This document shows positions 9,758-19,877 of a stretch of DNA of 64,000 nucleotides, piece after piece. The DNA comes from Glutamicibacter sp. JC586. Its GTDB lineage: Bacteria > Actinomycetota > Actinomycetes > Actinomycetales > Micrococcaceae. The position numbers were made by a program, and so were the translations under genes. The DNA lies in assembly GCF_009805585.1 (NCBI RefSeq), contig NZ_VHIN01000002.1:558001-622000 (forward strand). The letters are read 5' to 3'. The notes below the pieces were generated by a model. That model worked only from the letters and a program-made list of their open reading frames with translations. It was not told the DNA's origin and made no database searches. Within the stretch, counting starts at the first letter, position 1. Every line of letters begins with the position of its first letter.

Positions 9758-9955
9758 GCGCCCATCACTAACCCATTAGTACGCGCCCAGCTAGACGAAA
9801 AGTACGCACACCTTGATCACGATTATTCCGCCGATCAACAAGCTACCTGCCCGCACTGCCATTCCAACATTCATCGTTGGAGTCGGCCCAAGGTCCTGGA
9901 AGGCACCGCGTTGGGCGCGACAAAGCGGAACCGAGTTTTCTTGTGTCCAACGTGA
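9758..9955 (+). pseudogene. Start-less CxxC zinc-ribbon-like remnant
   Basis: The frame is open from the TGA at 9755-9757 to the TGA at 9953-9955 and translates to about 65 residues. These include ATCPHCHSNIHRWSRPKVLEG and, 30 residues on, VFLCPT, which resembles a zinc-ribbon tail. There is no ATG, GTG or TTG in the usable part, so it is most likely the 3' fragment of a lost gene. The rest of the gap 9631-10027 holds the inverted repeat and nothing else recognisable. Confidence 0.25.
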
Positions 9956-10027
9956 AGTACGGAAGCTAGCGAATAAGTTAGGCGGCCCCTGAAATTTGAC
10001 CTTGTCGCAACGTCAAGGTTTACCTTC

Positions 10028-10951
10028 GTGGCTATGACTATTTCAGTAATTGACACCGCGCCGAGCATGCGCGGAATTCTCGCCGCGGCGCCCGAGGACC
10101 GAGCCGATCTTGTCCGTGAAATGTGGTCTGCCGTAGCCGGCCTGTACCACTTCATCCCGGACGGCGTGGACATGGCGATGGTGCACCGTCAGAGCTTCGG
10201 CTTCGACGTGCACGGCACAACCGAACCGATCAGGCAAGCTCTCGATCGGCTCGTCAAGGCCAAGGCTTGGCACCGAATCAAGACCGCCATCGAGTCCGGA
10301 CTTACTGCGTTGCAAGTGGCAGCCCCAGAAATTCAGGTGCCTGATCTGACGGTCCTCCTGGTCCTGGGCAATCCAACTGACAAGCACTTCATTGACGAGA
10401 TCCAAGGGCTGTCTGCATTCGGCGGAATCAGCGGCTACATCACCATCACCATTTGGCCGACTCCTCAGGTTCTGGAACGTCTCGAAGCCATTGCCGTACA
10501 TGAACTGCACCATAATGTGCGGTATTCACCAGGCGGCCTTCTCTGGGATCCGATGACGGTCACGGTTGGTGAACAGGTGATCTCCGAGGGCCTCGCCGAC
10601 GTGTTTGCTACTGAAATGTACGGGGAACTCGGGTACACACACTTCGTCAGTGCGAGCACTCGTACTGACGACGACGTGCTTCTGAAGGTCGCAGATGGGC
10701 TGCACATCACCGGCATGCAGAACTTCACCGCCTGGATTCACGGGGATGCTAGCGCTCGCCAATTTGGAGCGGCACCGGTGGGCCTGCCCACGGGTGCAGG
10801 TTATGCAGCTGGAACACGACTAGTTCGAGCTTATCTCGATCTGACTGAGTCCACTGCAGCACAATGCGTTGCCACGCCTGCACACGAAATACTGCGCGTC
10901 GCGGCCCCTAAACTGGGGTTGCACCTCAAAAATGAGAACTGGGATCAATAG
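10028..10951 (+). CDS. DUF2268 putative Zn-dependent protease
   Basis: This 307-residue protein has a zincin motif HELHH (in AIAVHELHHNVRY) and a downstream GEQVISEGLADVFATEMYG glutamate helix, the arrangement of DUF2268 predicted zinc proteases. No signal peptide or TM is seen, so it is probably cytoplasmic. GTG 10028 or ATG 10034 could be the start. The MerR gene follows after 20 bp in the same direction, suggesting a regulator-enzyme operon. GC content rises sharply from here to about 18100 compared with the flanks, consistent with acquired DNA. Confidence 0.8.
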   Translation: MAMTISVIDTAPSMRGILAAAPEDRADLVREMWSAVAGLYHFIPDGVDMAMVHRQSFGFDVHGTTEPIRQALDRLVKAKAWHRIKTAIESGLTALQVAAPEIQVPDLTVLLVLGNPTDKHFIDEIQGLSAFGGISGYITITIWPTPQVLERLEAIAVHELHHNVRYSPGGLLWDPMTVTVGEQVISEGLADVFATEMYGELGYTHFVSASTRTDDDVLLKVADGLHITGMQNFTAWIHGDASARQFGAAPVGLPTGAGYAAGTRLVRAYLDLTESTAAQCVATPAHEILRVAAPKLGLHLKNENWDQ

Positions 10952-10971
10952 CGAGCAGGAGGTAGTAGCAC

Positions 10972-11766
10972 GTGGAATGGACAGTGCAAGAGCTCGCAGA
11001 GCGTGCGGGCATCAGCGGGCGTACCCTGCGTCATTACCACCAGATCGGACTGCTCGAACCAGACCGCGTCGGATCCAACGGCTACCGCTACTACGGGGCC
11101 GACGCGGTCTCCCGCCTGCAACGGATCCTGCTCCTGCGGGACACGGGCATGCCGCTGGCTGACATCGCGGCCGTGTTGAATGCACCCAGGACACCTGAGG
11201 TGGAAATCGAAGCGCTTGCTGGGCACTTGGAAAGTCTCGCCCAGGAGCGCGAGTCATTGGATCGACGCATCAGGGCCGTAGAGCACACACTGTCGATGCG
11301 CCGCCAAGGCCGCGAACCTCGCATGGATGTCATGCTCGAGGGATTCAATGACCGATACGAGGAAGAGGTTGTCGAACGCTGGGGTCGGGACGCATTCGAC
11401 GCATCGAATCGGTGGTGGCACGGGAAATCGGTCCAGCAGCAGAAGGATTGGAAAGCCCGAGCCGAAGGCCTACTCGCCCGGTGGCGTGTGATCCAGCAGG
11501 AGGGGCATGAGTTGGACTCCGCCATAGCGCAGGAGCACGCGGCCGTTCACGTGGAGTGGTTGAAGGAGATTCCAGGAACCCCTACCCACGCAGGCGATAC
11601 CGCAAAGTCCGTCGACATGATTCGAGGTCTCGCGGACCAGTACGAAACGAACCCCGACTTCCACGTCGCCTTCGGGACCCCGAGGGCCGCACGGTTCGCC
11701 GCAAACACGTTGCGACTCCACGTGGGAAGAATAGAGTCCTCTTTTACGGATGACCTCGGGGGTTAG
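10972..11766 (+). CDS. MerR family regulator with TipAS-like C-terminus
   Basis: This 264-residue regulator has an N-terminal MerR winged helix (WTVQELAERAGISGRTLRHYHQIGLLEPDR.GSNGYRYYGADAVSRLQRILLLRDTGMPLADIAAVL), a coiled coil (LESLAQERESLDRRIRAVEHTLS) and a helical C-terminal domain like the TipAS antibiotic-binding domain. GTG 10972 has an AGGAGG nine bases upstream. Its stop lies exactly at the edge of repeat A (11763), the left limit of the repeat array. Confidence 0.87.
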   Translation: MEWTVQELAERAGISGRTLRHYHQIGLLEPDRVGSNGYRYYGADAVSRLQRILLLRDTGMPLADIAAVLNAPRTPEVEIEALAGHLESLAQERESLDRRIRAVEHTLSMRRQGREPRMDVMLEGFNDRYEEEVVERWGRDAFDASNRWWHGKSVQQQKDWKARAEGLLARWRVIQQEGHELDSAIAQEHAAVHVEWLKEIPGTPTHAGDTAKSVDMIRGLADQYETNPDFHVAFGTPRAARFAANTLRLHVGRIESSFTDDLGG

Positions 11767-11811
11767 TTAGAAAATCTAAACTCCACCGAGTTCCGGCGGA
11801 TACCAACCTCT
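11763..11811 (-). repeat. Repeat A (ychF 3'-end-like, left limit of array)
   Basis: Read on the minus strand this encodes EVGIRRNSVEFRFSN-stop, mimicking the YchF C-terminus VEFRFNV. Its left arm CCGGAACTCGGTGGAG is like repeats B and E. Its right arm uses the codons TTT AGA for Phe-Arg, as the resident ychF does (repeat F), whereas B, D and E use TTC CGC or TTC CGG. It therefore looks like a chimeric outer junction. Confidence 0.6.
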
Positions 11812-11861
11812 AACCTCAGCCAACTTTTGGACCGAGGCCTCCCCGCAACTACGCTGAACCA

Positions 11862-12365
11862 GTGACTCCGCCAAATACCCAACGCCTCCGCTTCCGCCGC
11901 ATGCGGCCTGCTGACATCGATCTCATGGCCGACATGCTCGGGGATCCTGAAGTGATGCGTTTCTACCCCTCCGCAAAAACACGCGAGCAGGCAGCCAGGT
12001 GGATCACTTGGAATGAAGAGAACTACGCGGAGCACGGCTACGGCCTATGGATCGTCGAGACGATCCACGGCGAGTTCGTTGGCGACTGCGGCCTCACCTG
12101 GCAAGAGGTGAATGGCGCACCCAAGCTCGAGGTCGGCTACCACGTCGTCACCGCAAGGCAGGGCCTCGGTTACGCGACCGAAGCCGCCATTGCATGCCGC
12201 GACTACGCACGCGACGTTGTAGGCTCACCCGAGTTGGTCGCCATCATCCACCCCGAGAACGAAGCTTCGGAACGCGTCGCCCGAAAGCTCGGTATGCATC
12301 GACTGGCAGACGACCATGGTGGAAACATTCCCGTCCGGACGGTTCTCGGGATGACGTTTGAGTAG
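11862..12365 (+). CDS. GNAT family N-acetyltransferase (module between repeats A and B)
   Basis: This 167-residue RimJ/RimL-type acetyltransferase has TQRLRFRRMRPADIDLMADMLGDPEVMRFYPS, YHVVTARQGLGYATEAAIACRDYA (acetyl-CoA loop) and NEASERVARKLGMHRLAD. GTG 11862 begins the domain directly; no strong Shine-Dalgarno is visible. It is the only gene of its module, 50 bp from repeat A and about 55 bp from repeat B. A hairpin at 12381-12415 follows it. Confidence 0.85.
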   Translation: MTPPNTQRLRFRRMRPADIDLMADMLGDPEVMRFYPSAKTREQAARWITWNEENYAEHGYGLWIVETIHGEFVGDCGLTWQEVNGAPKLEVGYHVVTARQGLGYATEAAIACRDYARDVVGSPELVAIIHPENEASERVARKLGMHRLADDHGGNIPVRTVLGMTFE

Positions 12366-12380
12366 TAGCGAACTGAGAAC

Positions 12381-12415
12381 ACAAGCGCCGGCTCCTTTCA
12401 GGGGCCGACGCTTGT
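12381..12415. terminator. Hairpin after GNAT gene, next to repeat B
   Basis: The arms ACAAGCGCCGGCTCC and GGGGCCGACGCTTGT pair with two mismatches around a TTTCA loop, giving a strong GC-rich stem without a good U-tract. It lies six bases left of repeat B. An equivalent hairpin sits beside repeat D (16513-16548). Confidence 0.5.
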
Positions 12416-12420
12416 GCAAG

Positions 12421-12488
12421 AGGTTGAACCGGAACGCGACTACACGTTGAAGCGGAACTCCACCGAGTTCCGGCACATACCAATCTCT
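12421..12488 (-). repeat. Repeat B (ychF 3'-end-like, with second partial copy)
   Basis: On the minus strand it reads EIGMCRNSVEFRFNV-stop followed at once by a second partial copy (GCGTTCCGGTTCAACCTCT). The core 12453-12472 is a perfect inverted repeat, CGGAACTC-CACC-GAGTTCCG. Positions 12431-12463 are identical over 33 bases to 16566-16598 in repeat D. The remainder of the gap, 12489-12741, holds no recognisable gene. Confidence 0.7.
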
Positions 12489-12741
12489 CGCGATCAGTAG
12501 CCAGGCTTCAAGAGCTAATCATTCCGCGGGCCAGAGCGTTGCACTGACTCATCTCGTACTGTGCACGACAGAGACCAGGTGCGCATAGCCACCGGCCATG
12601 CTCCGGAGCATGTTCGCCGGGATGCGGTCGGCCAGTTATTGCAGGGGATCGATGCCGCAAAGTCAAACGCTTCCCACGCTCCTGAGCACCCTGATGGGGC
12701 GCAGAAGAATCTCAGATAAAGGTATGCCAAGTCATCGCCAG

Positions 12742-13899
12742 CTATTCGGACGCCGACTGTTTCGCTGTCGTGTACGCGGTGTGGGCGGCGAGAACAGCCG
12801 TCACGGCGAGCACGGCGACGCTTAACGCAATCACCGGCAGGTAGTTGATCAGCAGCAGCGCGGCGATCGTGATCACCAACAGCACGGCCACTGCGATGAA
12901 CCGGGATCGCGCAAGTCGTCCGAAGCGGGACCGGAGGAACAACAAGTTCCCTGCCAGGTAGACGAGCGGACCTGATGCAGTCACAAGAACGACTGCGGGC
13001 GTGAGGTGGTCGTGGGAGAGCCTCAGCTCTATGGAGACGGCAACGAGGATCGCACCCATGACCATGAAGGCATGCGCATAAGCATAGGCCGATCGGAGAG
13101 CCCCAGTTGAAGAGTCCCCACCGTGAGTATTCGGGCCAGCAAGGGCGAAGTAGTTCCACCAGAGCACGAACAGGGATGCGAAGCCGACGAGCATGCTCAG
13201 GGCGAGCGCCGGGGTGAGTTGGCCGTGGGAGACGATGCTGCCGCCCATGAGCAGGATGGACTCGCCGAGGGCGATGATGAAGACGAGACGGTTTCGCTCA
13301 GCCAGGTGCTCGGCGTCCGTGTCCCACTGATACATGGGGGCTGCGCCGATGCCGGGGATCCGGTAGTGGGCCAGCGGGGCTGCATAGTCGATGAGCACCG
13401 CGATCAGCCAAAGACCCAGCCGCCACTCGAAGGGCAGCGCCGCACCGAGTACCCAGAAGATGCCGGCCAGCGCGGTCCACAGCAGCAACATGCGGTAGTT
13501 GGCTGCGAGCTGGTGCCCACGGTACGCGATCATCATGAACACTGGACGAAGGAGGCCCATGAACAGGTAGCACCCGACGAACAGCCAGGCTCCGTCGCCG
13601 AAGGCGCTCGGAATGGCGATCGACATGCCCAATGCGGCAAGCATGAGCACCCCGGAGAGCAGCTGCACCGGTGTACGGCTCGGATTCAGCCAGTTCATCG
13701 CCCAGGCGGTGTAGTTCCAGCCCCACCACACCGCGGCGAACACCACGATGGTCTGGGCAGCACCCTCCCAGGAGAGGTGGTCGATGAGCAGGTGCGAGAG
13801 CTGGATGATGGCGAAGACGTAGACCAAGTCGAAGAAGAGTTCGACGGGGCCGACCTCGGATCGACGGTGCCCGGTGCGGGCGAGCGGGACGGCAGTCAT
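12742..13899 (-). CDS. Low temperature requirement protein A (LtrA) family
   Basis: This 385-residue multi-pass membrane protein opens with the LtrA signature EVGPVELFFDLVYVFAIIQLSHLL and has about ten hydrophobic helices, with EHLAERNRLVFIIALGESILLMGG in the middle. LtrA proteins are named from a Listeria cold-growth locus; their molecular activity is unknown. I used ATG 13899 (MTAVPLARTG), since the 29 residues upstream are arginine-rich and unlike the family. It lies 102 bp after the NTF2 gene on the same strand, in the module between repeats B and C. Confidence 0.88.
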   Translation of the reverse strand: MTAVPLARTGHRRSEVGPVELFFDLVYVFAIIQLSHLLIDHLSWEGAAQTIVVFAAVWWGWNYTAWAMNWLNPSRTPVQLLSGVLMLAALGMSIAIPSAFGDGAWLFVGCYLFMGLLRPVFMMIAYRGHQLAANYRMLLLWTALAGIFWVLGAALPFEWRLGLWLIAVLIDYAAPLAHYRIPGIGAAPMYQWDTDAEHLAERNRLVFIIALGESILLMGGSIVSHGQLTPALALSMLVGFASLFVLWWNYFALAGPNTHGGDSSTGALRSAYAYAHAFMVMGAILVAVSIELRLSHDHLTPAVVLVTASGPLVYLAGNLLFLRSRFGRLARSRFIAVAVLLVITIAALLLINYLPVIALSVAVLAVTAVLAAHTAYTTAKQSASE

Positions 13900-14001
13900 G
13901 GTTGGCGAACCTCGTGTGTGTTGTTGTGCGGGGCTTCGAGGGCGACAGCAACGAGCGGACATCCATTTGGCTGGACGCCCGCTCAAGATGCCAGTGTCGG
14001 C

Positions 14002-14331
14002 TCAGCCTTCGCGGATCGTCATCTTCGCGAGCTTGTCGCCGTCGATGTCGAAGACGAACTTCGAGCGGCCGTTGGCGTGGTTGGAGCGCCAGTCGCCGAT
14101 GACGGTGACCGTTCTACCGGCGACGTCGACCTCCTCAACCGCGAGGGTGCCGCGCGAACCGATGAACTCTTTGTCACTCCAGGTTTTGATCTGCCCGCGT
14201 CCAATGAAGTCGCGTCCCCAGTCGTCCACGGCCCCGTCAGGAGCGAAGGCGTCGAGGAAGGCTTGTTCGTCGTGGTCGTTGACTGCGGCGATGAACGAGG
14301 CCACGGGTTCGGGGATGGTGGGTGCTGCCAT
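14002..14331 (-). CDS. NTF2/SnoaL-like small protein
   Basis: This 109-residue cone-shaped NTF2-fold protein (VASFIAAVNDHDEQAFLDAFAPDGAVDDWGRDFIGRGQIKTWSD... VIGDWRSNHANGRSKFVFDIDGDKLAKMTIREG) belongs to the SnoaL-like group that includes small isomerases and ligand-binding proteins. GAGGAG lies before the ATG. It follows the SDR gene by 30 bp, so the two are probably co-transcribed and may act on the same substrate. A truncated protein of the same fold is encoded at 15978-16163, across repeat C. Confidence 0.85.
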   Translation of the reverse strand: MAAPTIPEPVASFIAAVNDHDEQAFLDAFAPDGAVDDWGRDFIGRGQIKTWSDKEFIGSRGTLAVEEVDVAGRTVTVIGDWRSNHANGRSKFVFDIDGDKLAKMTIREG

Positions 14332-14361
14332 GGGGGTGCTCCTCTTTTCGTAGGGTCTAGC

Positions 14362-15117
14362 TCAGCGGGTGGTGTAGCCGCCGTTGGCGAAGATTGTCTG
14401 GCCGGTGATCCACCAGCCCTCGGAGGCGAGAAAGCGGACGATTGGGGCGATGTCCTCGATTTGAGTGAGTTGGTTGCCCATGCCCTGTGACTTGTGGAAC
14501 TCGACCCGCTCAGGGGTCTCCTGACCGTAGAAGAACGGGGTGTCCATGGGGCCGGGTGCTATCGCGGTTACGGAGATGCCGCGATCGGCAAACTCTTTGG
14601 CCGCAGCGCGCGTGAAGTGCTCCACCGGACTCTTGCCTCCGGCGTAGGTGGAATAGCCGTCAGTGAAGGCCGCCAACAGGGCGGTGACGATGGTGATGAT
14701 CTTGCCACCGTCAGCGAGGTTCTTGCCGGCCTCCTGAATGAAGAAGTAGGCGGCCTTGGAGTTGACGTCGAACATCGAGTCGTACTCGTCCTCGGTGGTC
14801 TCCACGATCGGCTTGCGCAAGACCTTGCCGACAGTGTTCACCGCGATGTCGATCGTGCCCAGCGCCGCTTCCGAATCGGCGAACAGGCGGGTCACGTTCG
14901 CCGGGACTGTGAGGTCTGCCTGGAACATAACGCCCTTGCCTCCTGCGGCTTCGATAGCGGCGAGCGTCTGCTCGGCGTCGGCGCGGCTGGAGTCAGAGTT
15001 GTAGTGGATCGCTACGTTCGCGCCGGCCTCGGCCGCCTGGCGGGCGATCAACCCGCCGAGGTTCTTCGCGCCGCCCGCGATCAGAACGTTCTTGCCCTTG
15101 AGTGTGTGCTCAGCCAT
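14362..15117 (-). CDS. SDR family oxidoreductase
   Basis: This 251-residue short-chain dehydrogenase has a Rossmann start KNVLIAGGAKNLGGLIARQAAEAGANVAIHYNSDS (NADP-leaning, with S/R after beta2), a VNTVGK segment, catalytic YSTYAGGKSPVEH (YxxxK) and ITAIAPGPMDTPFFYG. Length matches the classical SDR family. GAAGGAGC precedes ATG 15117. It is divergent from the TetR gene at 15182; the 64 bp between them carries GTATCATC repeats, making it the likely target of that repressor. Confidence 0.93.
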   Translation of the reverse strand: MAEHTLKGKNVLIAGGAKNLGGLIARQAAEAGANVAIHYNSDSSRADAEQTLAAIEAAGGKGVMFQADLTVPANVTRLFADSEAALGTIDIAVNTVGKVLRKPIVETTEDEYDSMFDVNSKAAYFFIQEAGKNLADGGKIITIVTALLAAFTDGYSTYAGGKSPVEHFTRAAAKEFADRGISVTAIAPGPMDTPFFYGQETPERVEFHKSQGMGNQLTQIEDIAPIVRFLASEGWWITGQTIFANGGYTTR

Positions 15118-15129
15118 GATGCTCCTTCT

Positions 15130-15156
15130 GTATCATCAGTATGCAACAGTATCATC
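15130..15156. promoter_or_regulatory. Candidate TetR operator between SDR and tetR-like genes
   Basis: The 64 bp divergent promoter region has a direct repeat GTATCATC at 15130-15137 and 15149-15156, with a further GTAT at 15139-15142 between them. Such duplicated half-sites in a TetR-SDR intergenic gap commonly mark the autoregulatory operator. The exact footprint is inferred. Confidence 0.4.
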
Positions 15157-15181
15157 CCGCTACATCAGCTAACATAGCATC

Positions 15182-15874
15182 ATGACAGTAACGCCGACAA
15201 GCCATACACGGGAGCGATTGATTTCGGCGGCTGCCGACCTCATCGCTGCCGCCCCCGGGGAGGAGTTCTCGCTACGTGCGGTGTGCGAGACCGTCGGTGT
15301 GAAGATGCCGACGCTGTACCACTTCTTCGGCTCCAAGCAGGGGCTGATCAACGCGGTCATTAAACATGGATTTGACCTGTACCTGGGCGAGAAGTCTTCG
15401 ATGGAGTCGTCCGGCGACCCCATCCAGGACATCCGCGTCGGATGGGACGCCCACGTCGCCTTCGGCCTGGCCAACCCCGGCTTCTACTCACTCATGTACG
15501 GCAAAGTTCAACCAGGCTACTCCCCTGAAGCGCAGTCGCGGCCAAGCAAAATCCTGCTCGGCCTCATGACGCGTGCAGCCACACAGGGCCGGCTCGCCGT
15601 TCCTGCGCAGCAGGCTGCGGCACACATCCTCGTGACAAATATCGGTGTCACCCTGCGGCAGATCGTCTTGGCAGCGCCGGACCCTGCCCTCTCTCAGGCT
15701 GTCCGTGAAGGTGCTATCTCAGCGATCACCGGTGCGGGAACACGGGCCGACAACCCGATCACCACCACCATCGAGCTCGCCGCAGCACAACCAGACGTCC
15801 TTGGCAGGGCAGAGACCCAGCTCCTCATCAAATGGCTCGGCGAGCTGAGCAGGGATAACGAGAAGCTGCAGTAG
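15182..15874 (+). CDS. TetR/AcrR family transcriptional regulator
   Basis: This 230-residue regulator has an N-terminal TetR helix-turn-helix (RERLISAAADLIAAAPGEEFSLRAVCETVGVKMPTLYHFFGSKQGLINAVIKHGFDLYL). A C-terminal ligand-binding domain contains WDAHVAFGLANPGFYSLMYG, as in the TetR_C group that senses small organic molecules. It faces the SDR/NTF2/LtrA genes and presumably represses them and itself. The stop at 15874 is about 65 bp before repeat C. Confidence 0.92.
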   Translation: MTVTPTSHTRERLISAAADLIAAAPGEEFSLRAVCETVGVKMPTLYHFFGSKQGLINAVIKHGFDLYLGEKSSMESSGDPIQDIRVGWDAHVAFGLANPGFYSLMYGKVQPGYSPEAQSRPSKILLGLMTRAATQGRLAVPAQQAAAHILVTNIGVTLRQIVLAAPDPALSQAVREGAISAITGAGTRADNPITTTIELAAAQPDVLGRAETQLLIKWLGELSRDNEKLQ

Positions 15875-15940
15875 GCGAGTGCCACGAACTTCGGAGAGGC
15901 ACAGCGGTCCCGGAGGGAGACAAGAGACCTTCTTCCATCA

Positions 15941-15970
15941 CGCAACCGAGTTCCGGTACAGAGCAACCTC
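15941..15970 (-). repeat. Repeat C (half copy)
   Basis: On the minus strand it encodes EVALYRNSVA-stop: the left arm GTACCGGAACTCGGT matches repeats A, B and E, but the sequence diverges before the VEFRFNV part. It looks like a half-site or a decayed copy. It separates the TetR gene from a truncated NTF2-type gene. Confidence 0.5.
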
Positions 15971-15977
15971 ACGTCAG

Positions 15978-16163
15978 TCACGCGAACAGCGGCCGCGGGT
16001 CGAAGGTCACCCTCACGGAGACAATCTTTCCGTATTCGACGTGCGTCCAGTTCGCGACCTGCAAGGGGGCTCTGTCCCCCATCCGCAGTTCGGACCAGGT
16101 AATGACGTCGTCCTCAGATGCGAGACGGAGAAGAACCTTGTTCGACGTCGTGGCAACGAACAT
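15978..16163 (-). pseudogene. Truncated NTF2/SnoaL-like protein fragment
   Basis: This 61-residue frame ends in DVITWSELRMGDRAPLQVANWTHVEYGKIVSVRVTFDPRPLF, which matches the C-terminal half of SnoaL/NTF2-like proteins (about 110-130 residues). The N-terminal half is missing and the upstream minus strand (16164-16510) shows no continuation. Its stop is eight bases from repeat C. It may be the remnant of a module whose start was lost by deletion. Confidence 0.55.
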
Positions 16164-16512
16164 CCCGCCTAGACCCTCGATGAATTCGTCTGCCCGTTAT
16201 GTTGTTGACAGCTCCTGAACACCGAAAAACATAGGAAAAAACATAGGAGCTGTCGGCCGACCAATCTCGGCATGGTGTCTTGCCCCTGCTTATCCAATAG
16301 TCCGGGGGTGTTGCCACCGAGAATGGGATGGCAGCGTGGTGATTGCTGATTAGGGTCGCGACGCCAAGGGTGGCGAGGACTTGTCGCATGGCCGCTGCGT
16401 CCAGTCCAGAAGTTCCTGGTGTGGATCACCCTGTTCCAGACCGGCAGCGCGATCAGCCGAACATTTCGCTAGTCCCAGGCGCGGCGACTCGCCTGCTTGT
16501 CGCTCATAAATC
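16164..16512. other. Gap with no recognisable gene
   Basis: Between the NTF2 fragment and the hairpin beside repeat D I see only short unrelated open frames. A tandem AAACATAGGA (16228-16248) repeats once within 20 bp. Nothing is assignable. Confidence 0.4.
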
Positions 16513-16548
16513 GAATGCCCGGCTCTCCATTGGGAGATCCGGGCACTC
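16513..16548. terminator. Hairpin next to repeat D
   Basis: Arms GAATGCCCGGCTCTCC and GGGAGATCCGGGCACTC form a long GC-rich stem with small mismatches. It lies about ten bases left of repeat D, the same position that hairpin 12381-12415 holds beside repeat B. It has no clear U-tract. Confidence 0.45.
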
Positions 16549-16557
16549 GAGCGGGAC

Positions 16558-16623
16558 ATTGAAGCGGAACGCGACTACACGTTGAAGCGGAACTCCACGA
16601 CGTCGCCGCACGTACCAACCTCT
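16558..16623 (-). repeat. Repeat D (ychF 3'-end copy with donor-like codons)
   Basis: On the minus strand it encodes EVGTCGDVVEFRFNV-stop, the only internal copy that keeps the genuine YchF residues GDVVEFRFNV. It uses GC-rich codons (GAG TTC CGC TTC AAC GTG TAG) unlike the resident gene, followed by a second partial copy. It looks like the 3' end of another organism's ychF carried in with the module. Confidence 0.7.
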
Positions 16624-16645
16624 GGGGACTCAGCACCATTGCCGT

Positions 16646-16661
16646 CATCTTGTACAAGATG
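16646..16661. promoter_or_regulatory. Palindromic operator of the Phd-RelE operon
   Basis: CATCTTGTACAAGATG is a perfect 16-base palindrome 12 bp upstream of the antitoxin ATG at 16674. Phd/YefM antitoxins autoregulate by binding such palindromes in their own promoter. The assignment is by position and symmetry. Confidence 0.6.
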
Positions 16662-16673
16662 TACCATTAGGCC

Positions 16674-16919
16674 ATGACTTCCGTGACCCTCTCCGACTTC
16701 CGCAACCGTCAGGCCGACCTCATCGCGACGGCGCAGCGCGAGCCCGTCGAGATCACGTCCCGCGGCGCTGGTCGACGTGCAGTCGTCGTATCCCCGGAGT
16801 TCTACGATCGTGCGCTCCAGGCGCTGGAAGATCAAGCCGACATTCGCACCGCGGCGGCCGCACGTCAGGAGACTGAGCGCGTCTCCCAAGAGGATCTGGC
16901 CGCTGAACTCGGATTCTGA
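16674..16919 (+). CDS. Phd/YefM-type antitoxin
   Basis: This 81-residue antitoxin has the Phd/YefM N-terminal fold (TSVTLSDFRNRQADLIATAQREPVEITSRGAGRRAVVVSPEFYDRAL) and a charged, probably disordered C-terminal tail that would wrap the toxin. The toxin GTG begins three bases after its stop. A perfect palindrome lies just upstream. It opens the module between repeats D and E. Confidence 0.92.
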   Translation: MTSVTLSDFRNRQADLIATAQREPVEITSRGAGRRAVVVSPEFYDRALQALEDQADIRTAAAARQETERVSQEDLAAELGF

Positions 16920-16922
16920 TCC

Positions 16923-17180
16923 GTGACGTACCGGATCACCTACGTCGCATCGGCGGCGAAGGCTCTCCGCAAGCTCGATCGACAGGCCGCTCGGCGAATC
17001 TTCGAGGCGATCACCAGCCTGGCGGACGACCCTCGACCGCCAGGCTGCATCACGCTCCAGGGCGGCGACGGCGAACTGCGCATCAGGGGCGGCGACTACC
17101 GAGTCATCTACGACATCGTGGACGACGAGCTGATCGTGCTGATCCTCCGGGTCGGCCACCGACGAGAGATCTACCGATGA
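16923..17180 (+). CDS. RelE/ParE-type toxin
   Basis: This 85-residue toxin begins YRITYVASAAKALRKLDRQAARRIFEAITSLADDPRP and ends LRIRGGDYRVIYDIVDDELIVLILRVGHRREIYR. The C-terminal R-x-G-x-Y-R-V-x-Y and GHRREIY residues are those of RelE-type ribosome-dependent mRNA interferases. Its stop overlaps the ATG of the hydrolase gene (ATGA at 17177), so three genes appear to be translated as one operon. Confidence 0.92.
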   Translation: MTYRITYVASAAKALRKLDRQAARRIFEAITSLADDPRPPGCITLQGGDGELRIRGGDYRVIYDIVDDELIVLILRVGHRREIYR

Positions 17181-18091
17181 ACGGTGACGTATTGCCCAGG
17201 ATCGCCGATTCTGAGCTGGAGGCCTGGCTCACCGCCATCGCAGAACAGGGGCACAGCGCGCCATCGATAGCGCAACTCCGTGCGAAGCGGGCTCGACCAG
17301 GCGGGCCCGACATCCCGGTCGTGAATGACCTGGTCATTGCTGCCGACGGTGGCACCCGCATCCCGGTCCGCACCTACCGACACGACACGATGAACACGCG
17401 CGCCACATGTGTCTACGCCCATGGCGGCGCATTCGTGTTCGGGGATCTCGACTCGCATGACCGCGCGTGCCGACGCCTCGCAGCTCTCGGCGGCGTAGAC
17501 GTCGTCGCGGTGGACTATCGACTCGCACCCGAGCACCCGGCCCCCGCAGGCATCGACGACGTCCGCGCCGTGCTCGGGTGGCTCGAGGAGCGTGTTGCGG
17601 GCGAAGTCCCCATAGGGCTTGCGGGCGATTCCGCAGGAGCCCTCATTGCCTTCCTCGCCGCGTGCGCATCCGACGTCGCGATCGACCAGCTTCTCCTGAT
17701 CAATCCCAATGTGGATCTCGCTCTCTCGAAGCCCAGCGTGCTGACCAAAGGCGAGGGCTGGGGTCTGGACGCACGGGATCTGGAGTGGTTCGTGTCGCAG
17801 TGGGCACCCACGGCCGCATTGCGCGAGAGCCACGCGCTCAGTCCGTTACAGCAGCCGCCTTCGACCGCTCCGATGACGACGATCATCACGAGCGAGCATG
17901 ACCCGCTCCGCGACGAAGGGCTGGATCTGGTCGAACACCTGCGAAATGCAGGACGCCTGACGGCGCACCATCACCTCGAGGGCATGGTCCACGGTGTGAT
18001 CAACCTGGACACCATCTCCCCCACAGCTCGGCGAATGGGCGATGAATTCTTGACCGACTTCGCAGAGGATCTCAATCAGTCCAGAGACTGA
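17177..18091 (+). CDS. Alpha/beta hydrolase, hormone-sensitive-lipase type
   Basis: This 304-residue esterase/lipase has the HSL-family oxyanion motif in YAHGGAFVFGDLDSHDRACRRLA, nucleophile GLAGDSAGALIAFLA (GDSAG), catalytic Asp in ITSEHDPLRDEGLDL and His in HHHLEGMVHGVIN. No signal peptide is present. It is cytoplasmic and probably cleaves short acyl esters. It is coupled by ATGA to the RelE toxin, so it is the passenger of a toxin-antitoxin module. Its stop lies inside the edge of repeat E. Confidence 0.9.
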   Translation: MNGDVLPRIADSELEAWLTAIAEQGHSAPSIAQLRAKRARPGGPDIPVVNDLVIAADGGTRIPVRTYRHDTMNTRATCVYAHGGAFVFGDLDSHDRACRRLAALGGVDVVAVDYRLAPEHPAPAGIDDVRAVLGWLEERVAGEVPIGLAGDSAGALIAFLAACASDVAIDQLLLINPNVDLALSKPSVLTKGEGWGLDARDLEWFVSQWAPTAALRESHALSPLQQPPSTAPMTTIITSEHDPLRDEGLDLVEHLRNAGRLTAHHHLEGMVHGVINLDTISPTARRMGDEFLTDFAEDLNQSRD

Positions 18092-18151
18092 ACCGGAACG
18101 CCATCAGACGTTGAACCGGAACTCGACGGAGTTCCGGTACGTAGCAACCTC
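18089..18151 (-). repeat. Repeat E (ychF 3'-end-like, perfect inverted core)
   Basis: On the minus strand it encodes EVATYRNSVEFRFNV-stop, then a second partial copy (GCGTTCCGGTTCAGTCTCT). The core 18117-18136 is CGGAACTC-GACG-GAGTTCCG, a perfect inverted repeat, flanked further out by GTTG and CAAC. The hydrolase stop codon is at its left edge. Confidence 0.7.
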
Positions 18152-18180
18152 ACGCGCCATGCCGTTTTTTGCTTTTCCGG

Positions 18181-18669
18181 TCAGCTCTTGGCCGCGGACA
18201 CCCGACGGATCAATCGTGCAGCCCCCTGGCATACCAGTGCGGCGGGCAGGAGCAATGCGACGCCGTTGACCGTATCCCGGAACCGCAGCTCGCAGCCGTC
18301 CCTCTGGAGTTCTCGACGGGCCATGAGTGCCCCGGGAAGCATGATAGGCAAAGCCGTCGCAACACCGGCCGTGTAACCACGCTGCGCAACTGAAGCGACG
18401 AGGTGAGTCACGACGTGGGCTTCCAGCCCGGTAACGACTGCCCGATACATCGCAGACTTACCGGCGGAGTGCACGCCGCGGCCACAAGCCACCGCCACCA
18501 GAATTCCTATCAGCCCCACGGCGATCCACGATTGCTGCGGCGTGATCCTGAGTTGTTCTACACCAGTGCGGTCCACGAGACGATCACAGGATGCAGGAAA
18601 CGCGAATGCCTCCTCGATGTCGTGGATTATCCATGCCGCAAAAAGTGCAGTCGGCCCCTTCCAACTCAT
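18181..18669 (-). CDS. HXXEE domain membrane protein
   Basis: This 162-residue integral membrane protein has the family-defining WIIHDIEEAFAFP (HxxEE) near the N-terminus and EAHVVTHLVASVAQRGYTAGVATALPIMLPG, with conserved histidines for a possible metal site, plus four or five hydrophobic helices. Biochemical function is unknown. ATG 18669 (MSWKGP) begins the family homology. It is the single gene of the module between repeats E and F. Confidence 0.8.
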   Translation of the reverse strand: MSWKGPTALFAAWIIHDIEEAFAFPASCDRLVDRTGVEQLRITPQQSWIAVGLIGILVAVACGRGVHSAGKSAMYRAVVTGLEAHVVTHLVASVAQRGYTAGVATALPIMLPGALMARRELQRDGCELRFRDTVNGVALLLPAALVCQGAARLIRRVSAAKS

Positions 18670-18771
18670 AACTCGCCCTTCGCTTCGCGCATCCAAACCG
18701 GTTGAATCTGCTGGCCCACGTCCACCCGCATCAATTCACAGCCTACGGAGTGTTTAAAGCCATGCGATCGA

Positions 18772-18825
18772 GAGGTTGAACCGGAACTCCACTAAACGTT
18801 GAATCTAAATTCCACGACGTCGCCG
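18772..18825 (-). repeat. Repeat F (native ychF 3' end plus partial copy)
   Basis: This is the actual end of ychF (GDVVEFRFNV-stop, with AT-leaning codons TTT AGA), followed directly after the stop by a cassette-type partial copy TGGAGTTCCGGTTCAACCTC. The second copy resembles the arms of B and E rather than the host gene. It therefore marks the junction between chromosome and array. Confidence 0.7.
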
Positions 18826-19877
18826 TCCTTCATGATGTAGTCCTTGCCTTCAATGCGTGCCTTGCCCGCAGACTTGGCATTAGCCACCGAACCGGCGGCG
18901 ACCAGGTCCTCAAAGCCAATGACCTCGGCCTTGATGAAGCCACGCTGGAAGTCGGTGTGGATTACGCCGGCAGCCTCAGGTGCGGTGGCACCCTTGCGAA
19001 CGGTCCAAGCACGCGATTCCTTCGGGCCAGCGGTCAGGTAGGTCTGCAGGCCCAGGGTGTCGAAGCCGACGCGAGCAAGCTTGTCCAGACCGGACTCTTC
19101 GATGCCGGCGTCTTCCATCATTTCCTCGGCTTCGTCCTCTTCCAGCTCGGCGAGCTCGGATTCGAACTGGGCGTCAAGGAAGATCGCCTCGGCTGGAGCA
19201 ACCAGTGCGGAGAGCTTGGCCTGCATCTCGGCATCGGCCAGACCAGCCTCATCGGTGTTGAACACGTAGATGAATGGCTTGGTGGTCATCAGCTGCATTG
19301 GTGCCAGCTCTTCAAGGTCAACGCCCTTGGTCTTTGCCGCGGCGAACAGGGTGATGCCTTCTTCGAGGATCTTCTGCGCTGCCAGCACTGCATCCAGGAA
19401 GGACTTCTCGATCTTCTTGGTGCGCAGTTCCTTTTCCAGGCGAGGCAGCTGGTTCTCGATGGTCTGCAGGTCCGCGAGGATCAGCTCGGTAGCGATGGTC
19501 TCGATATCCGAGGCCGGGTCCACCTTGCCGTTCACGTGGATCACGTCGTCATTCACGAATGCGCGGGTGACCTGGCAGATCGCATCGGCTTCGCGGATGG
19601 TCGCCAGGAACTTATTGCCCAGGCCTTCGCCTTCCGAAGCGCCCTTGACGATGCCGGCGATATCCACGAAGGAGACGGTCGCAGGCAGGATGCGCTCGGA
19701 ATTGAAGATTCCGGCGAGCACCTTCAGCCGCGAGTCAGGCAACGGCACGACACCCACATTGGGTTCGATGGTTGCGAACGGGTAGTTGGCTGCCAGCACC
19801 TGGGCACGGGTCAGCGCGTTGAACATGGTGGACTTGCCGACGTTTGGCAGTCCGACGATTCCGATAGTAAGAGCCAC
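18792..19877 (-). CDS. ychF: Redox-regulated ATPase/GTPase YchF (Obg family)
   Basis: This 361-residue P-loop NTPase of the OLA1/YchF subfamily associates with ribosomes and prefers ATP. It has Walker A GLPNVGKSTMFNALT, switch II FVDIAGIVKGASEGEGLGNKFL, an NTDE region in place of a canonical NKxD, a long coiled-coil insert, and a C-terminal TGS domain ending KDYIMKDGDVVEFRFNV. It is full length. The last codons act as the boundary of the repeat array, and the coding sequence is preserved despite adjacent insertions. Confidence 0.97.
   Translation of the reverse strand: MALTIGIVGLPNVGKSTMFNALTRAQVLAANYPFATIEPNVGVVPLPDSRLKVLAGIFNSERILPATVSFVDIAGIVKGASEGEGLGNKFLATIREADAICQVTRAFVNDDVIHVNGKVDPASDIETIATELILADLQTIENQLPRLEKELRTKKIEKSFLDAVLAAQKILEEGITLFAAAKTKGVDLEELAPMQLMTTKPFIYVFNTDEAGLADAEMQAKLSALVAPAEAIFLDAQFESELAELEEDEAEEMMEDAGIEESGLDKLARVGFDTLGLQTYLTAGPKESRAWTVRKGATAPEAAGVIHTDFQRGFIKAEVIGFEDLVAAGSVANAKSAGKARIEGKDYIMKDGDVVEFRFNV

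Follow-up and report, generated by a model that had tools for sequence, protein, structure and literature searches.

Elements of the staphylococcal cassette chromosome (SCC) occupy the 3' end of rlmH, as do those of the Enterococcus cassette chromosome (ECC), and tandem and recombinase-less SCC elements exist. We have analysed a comparable arrangement behind ychF in Glutamicibacter sp. JC586, within a stretch of 64,000 nucleotides (contig NZ_VHIN01000002.1, positions 558,001 to 622,000) that we call the window. Here a series of small gene modules is punctuated by direct repeats that include the end of ychF. We conclude that this is probably a small-cassette array, built by site-specific recombination at the 3' end of ychF via hybrid sites of the large-serine-integrase type. 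ECC elements are described as having a serine recombinase, inserting into the 3' part of a conserved gene, and being bounded by direct repeats of ~50 bp, with a dyad both in attR and in the circular form (PMC6222049). The ychF locus resembles SCC and ECC in its insertion at the 3' region of a conserved gene, its direct-repeat junctions with a dyad and its variable cargo; restoration of the target gene end, repeated at each junction, is also SCC-like. It differs in that the target is ychF, that no large serine recombinase is present in the examined arrays and that the arrays extend over several actinomycete families. Moreover, the central TATCATAA of SCC is absent from the ychF array site.

Two other systems invite comparison. 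Phage serine integrases of the A118/LI integrase type share with the arrays a crossover at a central dinucleotide and a 5-bp offset of the outer motif between attP and attB (PMC3783163). However, the arrays comprise P|B' junctions and an intact attB-like ychF end, with no attL and no integrase. Integron arrays are also composed of small exchangeable modules with co-oriented sites at one chromosomal point, and carry toxin-antitoxin, acetyltransferase and unknown genes. Yet there is no IntI-like gene nearby, there are no attC-type sites, and the anchor here is the end of a housekeeping gene. The genes of the array point both ways, so presumably they have their own promoters. Actinomycetes are not known for integron arrays.

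The window falls within contig C11 of the source genome (G000, 3.52 Mb). The genus relatives compared include Glutamicibacter ardleyensis, G. protophormiae, and Arthrobacter sp. MYb213 and MYb229. Strong relatives of ychF (E <= 8e-154) were found in 55 of 58 genomes; G044, G046 and G050 gave only weak paralogue matches. An initial annotation made from the sequence alone had noted six co-oriented repeats and taken them for copies of the ychF 3' end. All six are present on the ychF strand, and they are instances of one 48-bp site, two copies of which are degraded. The right half does correspond to the ychF 3' end, encoding EFRFNV-stop, but the left half, GGTTGGTATGTGCCGGAACTCG, is not present in ychF. 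The target and the sites are as follows, with E values calculated against the whole genome using a 26-site model whose training set includes the three complete sites of the window.

18792..19877, minus strand: ychF, 361 aa, C-terminus GDVVEFRFNV; its 3' end is the attB-like target, with centre GT at 18814-18815
18793..18813, minus strand: right (B') half at ychF, GGAATTTAGATTCAACGTTTA(G), encoding the final ychF codons and stop
18104..18151, minus strand: array site 1, complete P|B', centre GT 18126-18127, E 5.0e-13
16575..16622, minus strand: array site 2, complete P|B' with a ychF-like inner left arm, centre GT 16597-16598, E 3.1e-15
15924..15970, minus strand: array site 3, left half and centre kept, right half decayed, centre GT 15945-15946, E 0.0013 (model positions 1-27)
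12441..12487, minus strand: array site 4, complete P|B', centre GT 12462-12463, E 1.8e-15
11764..11810, minus strand: array site 5, left half intact, right half a GGAGTTTAGATTTTC variant, centre GT 11785-11786, E 7.8e-5 (positions 1-31)

Of the array sites, those centred at 18126, 16597 and 12462 are complete, and the other two, at 15945 and 11785, are degraded. A right half of the GGAGTTTAGATTTTC type also opens a module in G001 and in G009. The palindrome alone is modestly significant in the window, with three matches at <=3 mismatches where 0.32 are expected; 2 of 100 shuffles reach three.

We examined the structure of the site using a larger collection. From 86 sites at E <= 1e-3, 56 were full-length and not at a ychF end, giving 53 distinct left and right halves. 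Conservation extends over ~26 nt in the left half and 22 nt in the right. Most left halves (79%) have [AT]AC starting at position 19, and 83% of the right halves have it starting at position 14. In a stricter set of 48 sites (E < 1e-6, island loci left out; 44 left and 45 right halves) the commonest left 8-mer, AACCTCTG, lies 19-26 nt from the centre (11 of 44), and the commonest right 8-mer, AACGTCTA, lies at 14-21 nt (16 of 45), where it encodes Asn-Val-stop of ychF. When the left outer motif was scored on the right halves at shifts of 0 to 10, the score was +8.2 at shift 5 and negative at the other ten. The dyad is formed by inverted CGGAACTC and GAGTTCCG around GT, and sites with a ychF-like inner arm are less symmetric. 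Rutherford et al. (2013, PMC3783163) describe this offset for serine integrases: compared with attP, attB has the motif for the zinc domain 5 bp closer to its centre. Each array boundary therefore comprises a P half and a B' half, the composition of an attR, while the ychF end is B plus B'. In its base sequence the site has the half-site architecture of the large-serine-integrase type.

Comparison of relatives places the module limits at these sites. For 192 alignments between arrays of different genomes, 125 starts fall within 45 bp of a site centre, compared with 10.5 (maximum 21) in 500 random slides, and 33 ends do so, compared with 10.9 (maximum 22). Module order and content vary between relatives. 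Neither outcome that the initial annotation had named as refuting its reading, repeats unrelated to boundaries or a conserved order, was observed. One module is exactly absent between neighbours of 99% identity, and in the G009/G011 pair a module has been gained or lost at a site inside the array. Identical short modules turn up in more than one family, and several of these have a site at each end. The initial annotation had proposed that modules are added one by one behind ychF, every addition rebuilding the final codons of the gene. Gain at the ychF end with restored codons is supported by the site-bounded alignments; a strictly one-by-one arrival does not agree with the internal event in G009/G011.

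The point of exchange can be read where a module has changed partners. The start of module Z beside different partners is identical rightwards from GT, and different leftwards. The ends of Z, of X (G011/G001) and of Y are identical leftwards through GT and diverge at the first base past it, with two mismatches in 38 within the shared stretch for the ends of X and Y. The other seven partner-swap pairs are compatible with this, though less sharp because they have more shared bases around the centre or are more diverged. These alignments place the crossover at or next to the central GT, and they demonstrate at the sequence level that gain, loss and movement of modules are bounded by the site. Homologous recombination on its own, duplicating the end of ychF, was considered, and is ruled out by the conserved left half from outside ychF and by the switches at GT.

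The site is closely tied to ychF. The 26-site model gave 67 matches at E <= 0.01 in 18 whole Glutamicibacter genomes, spread over 17 of them. Fifteen are the ychF end, and 47 lie downstream of ychF on the same strand in 13 of the 18 genomes, at <=17 kb from the gene except in G016 (32-40 kb). Many of these 47 were used in training the model, and the informative point is the near-absence of matches elsewhere in the genomes. Only five are elsewhere: three are weak, and two flank a second copy of one G001 module (C1:432948 and 434372). In the source genome all four matches to a shorter pattern (<=1 mismatch) are behind ychF. More widely, full sites occur in at least 42 of 297 Micrococcales genomes; the observation made in the window thus generalises. 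In 12 genomes where site and gene share a contig the target is ychF, as it also is in five named loci and in the arrays of the genus, the exception being the ectopic G001 cassette. The interval between sites has a median of 1.33 kb, with up to nine sites in succession. ychF ends FRFNV in 17 of 20 loci, and the right half is repeated at the array sites.

The ectopic cassette is a copy of module X (L096 4948-6417; G001:C1:432948-434416) with two bounding sites, 88.6% identical to the copy in the G001 array and on a contig other than that of ychF. An empty counterpart was found in none of 17 other genomes of the genus; the joined flanks match only themselves, plus ~30 bases of the site in four genomes.

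As the initial annotation had stated, no recombinase was found in the window array. The source genome has no PF07508 domain and two PF00589 genes, and its PF00239 serine recombinases are small, the nearest being a frame of 189 aa, 45 kb downstream of ychF and outside the window. Among the array-module proteins scanned none matched a recombinase family, where the scan covered a minority of the modules and did not include ccr-specific models.

Large serine recombinases with both PF00239 and PF07508 are present near ychF in G008 (531-aa frame) and G016 (573-aa frame). Relatives of the G008 integrase at E <= 1e-60 were found in nine of 297 genomes. In eight of these ychF adjoins the integrase, directly in G032, G165 and G245, and also in G286, G244, G095, G131 and G294; the G095 relative is a 134-residue match in a 685-aa frame. 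The ninth, in G091, is on an 11.5-kb contig without ychF. Eight phage records have integrases 38-43% identical to the G008 enzyme. The initial annotation knew of no described system with this exact target; the islands just described show that one clade of large serine recombinases integrates there.

These islands share with the arrays the target and the same GT, and in several cases related P half-sites. Unlike the arrays, they carry an integrase, and the ychF tail is replaced, not restored. Replacement is seen in all ten island genomes, including G008 and G016, with tails such as TGLTSGSKK, HGITSASQGKK and SGSASKR. A far-side site of P|B' type with the ychF end was found in G008, G131, G294, G165, G286, G244 and G245. 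The candidate far site of G016 has a diverged right half, and no far-side site was identified for the islands of G032 and G095. Where both ends were found the islands measure ~8-41 kb. Scored with the matrix of the array left halves against a background of 200,000 26-mers, the island P halves give p values from 1.5e-5 (G016) to 0.12 (G095); similarity is strong in G016, G131, G294 and G165, weak in G032 and G095, and mixed in the rest. Both annotated islands contain defence genes. The G008 island (12 kb, L047 6318-18358) has its serine integrase beside an Hma-like helicase/methylase/ATPase system and an ArdA-family gene, and that of G016 has a type IIG restriction-modification system. The defence systems of these two islands suggest that ychF is a hotspot for defence and accessory genes in this order.

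Some further loci were seen around ychF. In G016 a second small serine recombinase (193-aa frame, G016:C1:2501535-2501936) lies on the opposite strand within the island stretch, ~13 kb behind ychF. G014 has a broken serine recombinase near ychF, with no tblastn match to the G008 or G016 enzymes. In G013 (L031 16436-17859) the ychF tail TGLTSGSKK is followed by an IS110-family transposase, with no PF00239 or PF00589 match nearby; this is probably a rearranged island. Behind the G032 integrase (L078 1-1500) are two genes on the ychF strand, TIR-like and caspase-like as judged by eye.

Taken as a cassette system, the array could be assembled as follows. Each boundary consists of a P-type half-site of the element on the left, the GT, and on the right a B'-type ychF half-site encoding EFRFNV-stop, and a cassette would run from a B' half through its genes to a P half. 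Its B' half would be joined to ychF when the two exchange at the GT within the B|B' of that gene. The C-terminus of ychF would thereby be kept and an attB-like site rebuilt for the next cassette, with older boundaries persisting as P|B'. The present B' half at ychF apparently came from the first module, given its synonymous changes compared with relatives and the similar start of the same module in G009. Free cassettes would presumably be circular, and the reaction would have to tolerate hybrid sites, as the SCC recombinases appear to do. Since the examined arrays carry no integrase, and the genome of the window has no large serine recombinase, the modules look non-autonomous in the manner of SCC elements, and the enzyme would act in trans and transiently. 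SCC and ECC being the nearest precedent, we infer an SCC-like exchange in trans. An integrase of this type may have made the arrays, and the best candidates would be the large serine recombinases whose islands hold the same ychF site in other genomes.

A number of observations weigh against this reading. Among the 30 genomes that have full sites, 12 (G000, G002 and G009 being three of them) lack any PF07508 match at E <= 0.001, and in the other 18 the matches listed lie off the array contig or at least 280 kb away. P halves are weak (p 0.003-0.12) in five of 11 attL and four of eight attR sites. Islands are B|P' at ychF (tail not restored) and arrays B|B', and no intermediate was seen. In array genomes ychF ends FRFNV in 7 of 10, the others being EWRFSL (G177), FRFAV (G163) and FRFSN (G072). 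A collection of viral contigs contains no exact copy of either of two site patterns. GTNGAGTTCCG with one mismatch has three matches in four phage regions, none beside an integrase gene and none array-like, and plasmids gave no match to an integrase of this type. Lastly, by the published rules for serine integrases two P-B contacts are needed per synapse and attR x attR aligns antiparallel only (PMC3783163). Direct-repeat exchange among P|B' sites, or with attB, would therefore be outside the standard scheme.

There is one main rival. The modules could be remnants of serine-integrase islands that have lost the integrase and the P' end; homologous recombination, with ychF and the shared modules as regions of homology, would then spread and remove them, and no dedicated exchange of cassettes would exist. 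Integrase islands do occupy this position, with a P|B' site at the far side, the examined arrays contain no enzyme, and the standard rules for integrases bar direct-repeat exchange of attR sites. Alignments also end at sites much more rarely than they start there, so that many shared stretches are the start of a module only. However, modules start cleanly, with the B' half directly after GT, and short modules recur across families, several being site-bounded at both ends. Furthermore, four comparisons put the change of partner precisely at GT, a result not expected to recur from homologous recombination across 20-50 bp. We therefore regard an origin of the arrays as scars as unlikely. Another recombinase that we have not recognised, encoded by the host or by a cassette, might instead be responsible, the similarity of the half-sites reflecting only a shared ancestry of sites. 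Arrays do exist in genomes with no large serine recombinase match, and several module genes have no Pfam match. Yet a crossover at GT and an 8-nt motif that recurs with an offset of 5 bp are typical of serine integrases, and the limited scan of module proteins described above gave no recombinase family, making this quite improbable. Modules of integron or Xer/dif type exchanged by a tyrosine recombinase, suggested by the small mobile modules with toxin-antitoxin and acetyltransferase genes, like those of sedentary integrons and of pdif modules, are already contradicted and scarcely credible: the source genome has only its two PF00589 genes, across the 18 Glutamicibacter genomes no listed PF00589 match shares a contig with ychF at a distance below 170 kb, the dif-like site of the genome, CGATAATCTACATTATGTAAA, is unrelated to the array site, and both halves are conserved in sequence with, as judged by sequence, no attC signature GTTRRRY.

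Assembly by site-specific recombination at hybrid sites thus remains the reading that we prefer. A more ambitious form of it would be a serine-recombinase counterpart of the integron, in which a regenerated attB at ychF and P|B' sites recombine with each other, the latter also mutually as direct repeats, through an enzyme supplied in trans from transient islands or carriers, and the actinomycete families share one pool of small cassettes. Such recombination would go beyond the published attP x attB and attL x attR rules. We offer this tentatively, and it may well prove too broad. Serine-recombinase cassettes at a gene end are a known kind of element; an integron-like lifestyle would be new if exchange at hybrid sites were demonstrated. 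We found no such ychF array in the open-access literature, where wider matches were judged by title and abstract among those listed, and subscription papers and preprints were outside the scope; this is weak evidence of novelty. The one insertion beside ychF met in print is that of a pneumococcal prophage at a different site (PMC8637289, PMC6375853), and a paper on the Brevibacterium mobilome has no ychF in its main text. If the reading is correct, cassette capture at one housekeeping gene is widespread in Actinomycetes, and toxin-antitoxin, Abi, acetyltransferase and metabolic modules cross families. It would also provide a test case for a serine integrase performing repeated, order-changing cassette exchange with hybrid sites. 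A single 48-bp site behind ychF is a simple handle for cataloguing this mobile gene pool.

The modules of the window array are listed below.

18128..18813, minus strand: module 1, HXXEE-family gene (ORF 18181-18696, minus; Pfam PF13787)
16599..18125, plus strand: module 2, Phd/YefM antitoxin 16674-16919, ParE-type toxin 16923-17180 and Abhydrolase_3 17177-18091 (Pfam)
15947..16596, no strand assigned: module 3, small, 61-aa open frame 15978-16163 (minus), a putative NTF2 fragment according to the initial annotation
12464..15944, no single strand: module 4, LtrA 12742-13986 (minus), SnoaL_2 14002-14331 (minus), SDR 14362-15117 (minus) and TetR 15182-15874 (plus) (Pfam)
11787..12461, plus strand: module 5, GNAT acetyltransferase 11862-12365 (Pfam PF13302)
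~9950..11784, plus strand: probable module 6, MerR-TipAS regulator 10972-11766 and 307-aa gene 10028-10951 (Pfam)

Module 1 is 88.9% identical over 692 bp to DNA of Agilicoccus flavus (L073), and 87% to G009, where it is 9.2 kb from ychF. Module 4 is 88% identical to G005, and in other families 88% to G177 and 86% to G281. The array had been taken to end at 11763. There is a site there, but the array probably continues beyond it to ~9950, into the MerR-TipAS module, whose counterpart in G009 sits between two sites. The DNA of this module is 75-77% identical to G009, G004 and G012, and the G009 relative of its 307-aa gene is a DUF2268 protein. Its distal site was not found in the window, and none was seen at 9880-10030.

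Some smaller observations concern the sites and modules. A second B'-like half-core starts 22-24 nt past the centre in 17 of 119 sites, in the window at ~18084-18104, 16553-16575 and 12421-12441, and also in G001, G002, G003, G004, G005, G009, G011, G034, G300, L073 and L074. It is perhaps a scar left by an older exchange. A strict test for terminators was positive after 11 of 119 sites and in none of 200 random stretches, with a mean fold z of -1.7 relative to mononucleotide shuffles; it is suggestive that the modules supply ychF with a terminator too. In G005 two large module proteins of 828 and 521 aa (L039 2065-4551 and 10079-11644) have no Pfam or PADLOC match at E <= 0.001. Inside a module of G. 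protophormiae, 2.0 kb behind ychF, is a piece of a foreign ychF C-terminus (69 residues, 70% identical; G017:C10:15738-15944, L034). The cassette most widely shared in the alignments encodes a HigB-type toxin and a helix-turn-helix antitoxin (L042 17592-18156 in G012), with 72-89% DNA identity across families and related stretches in L061, L062, L065, L068, L072, L074, L041 and L039.

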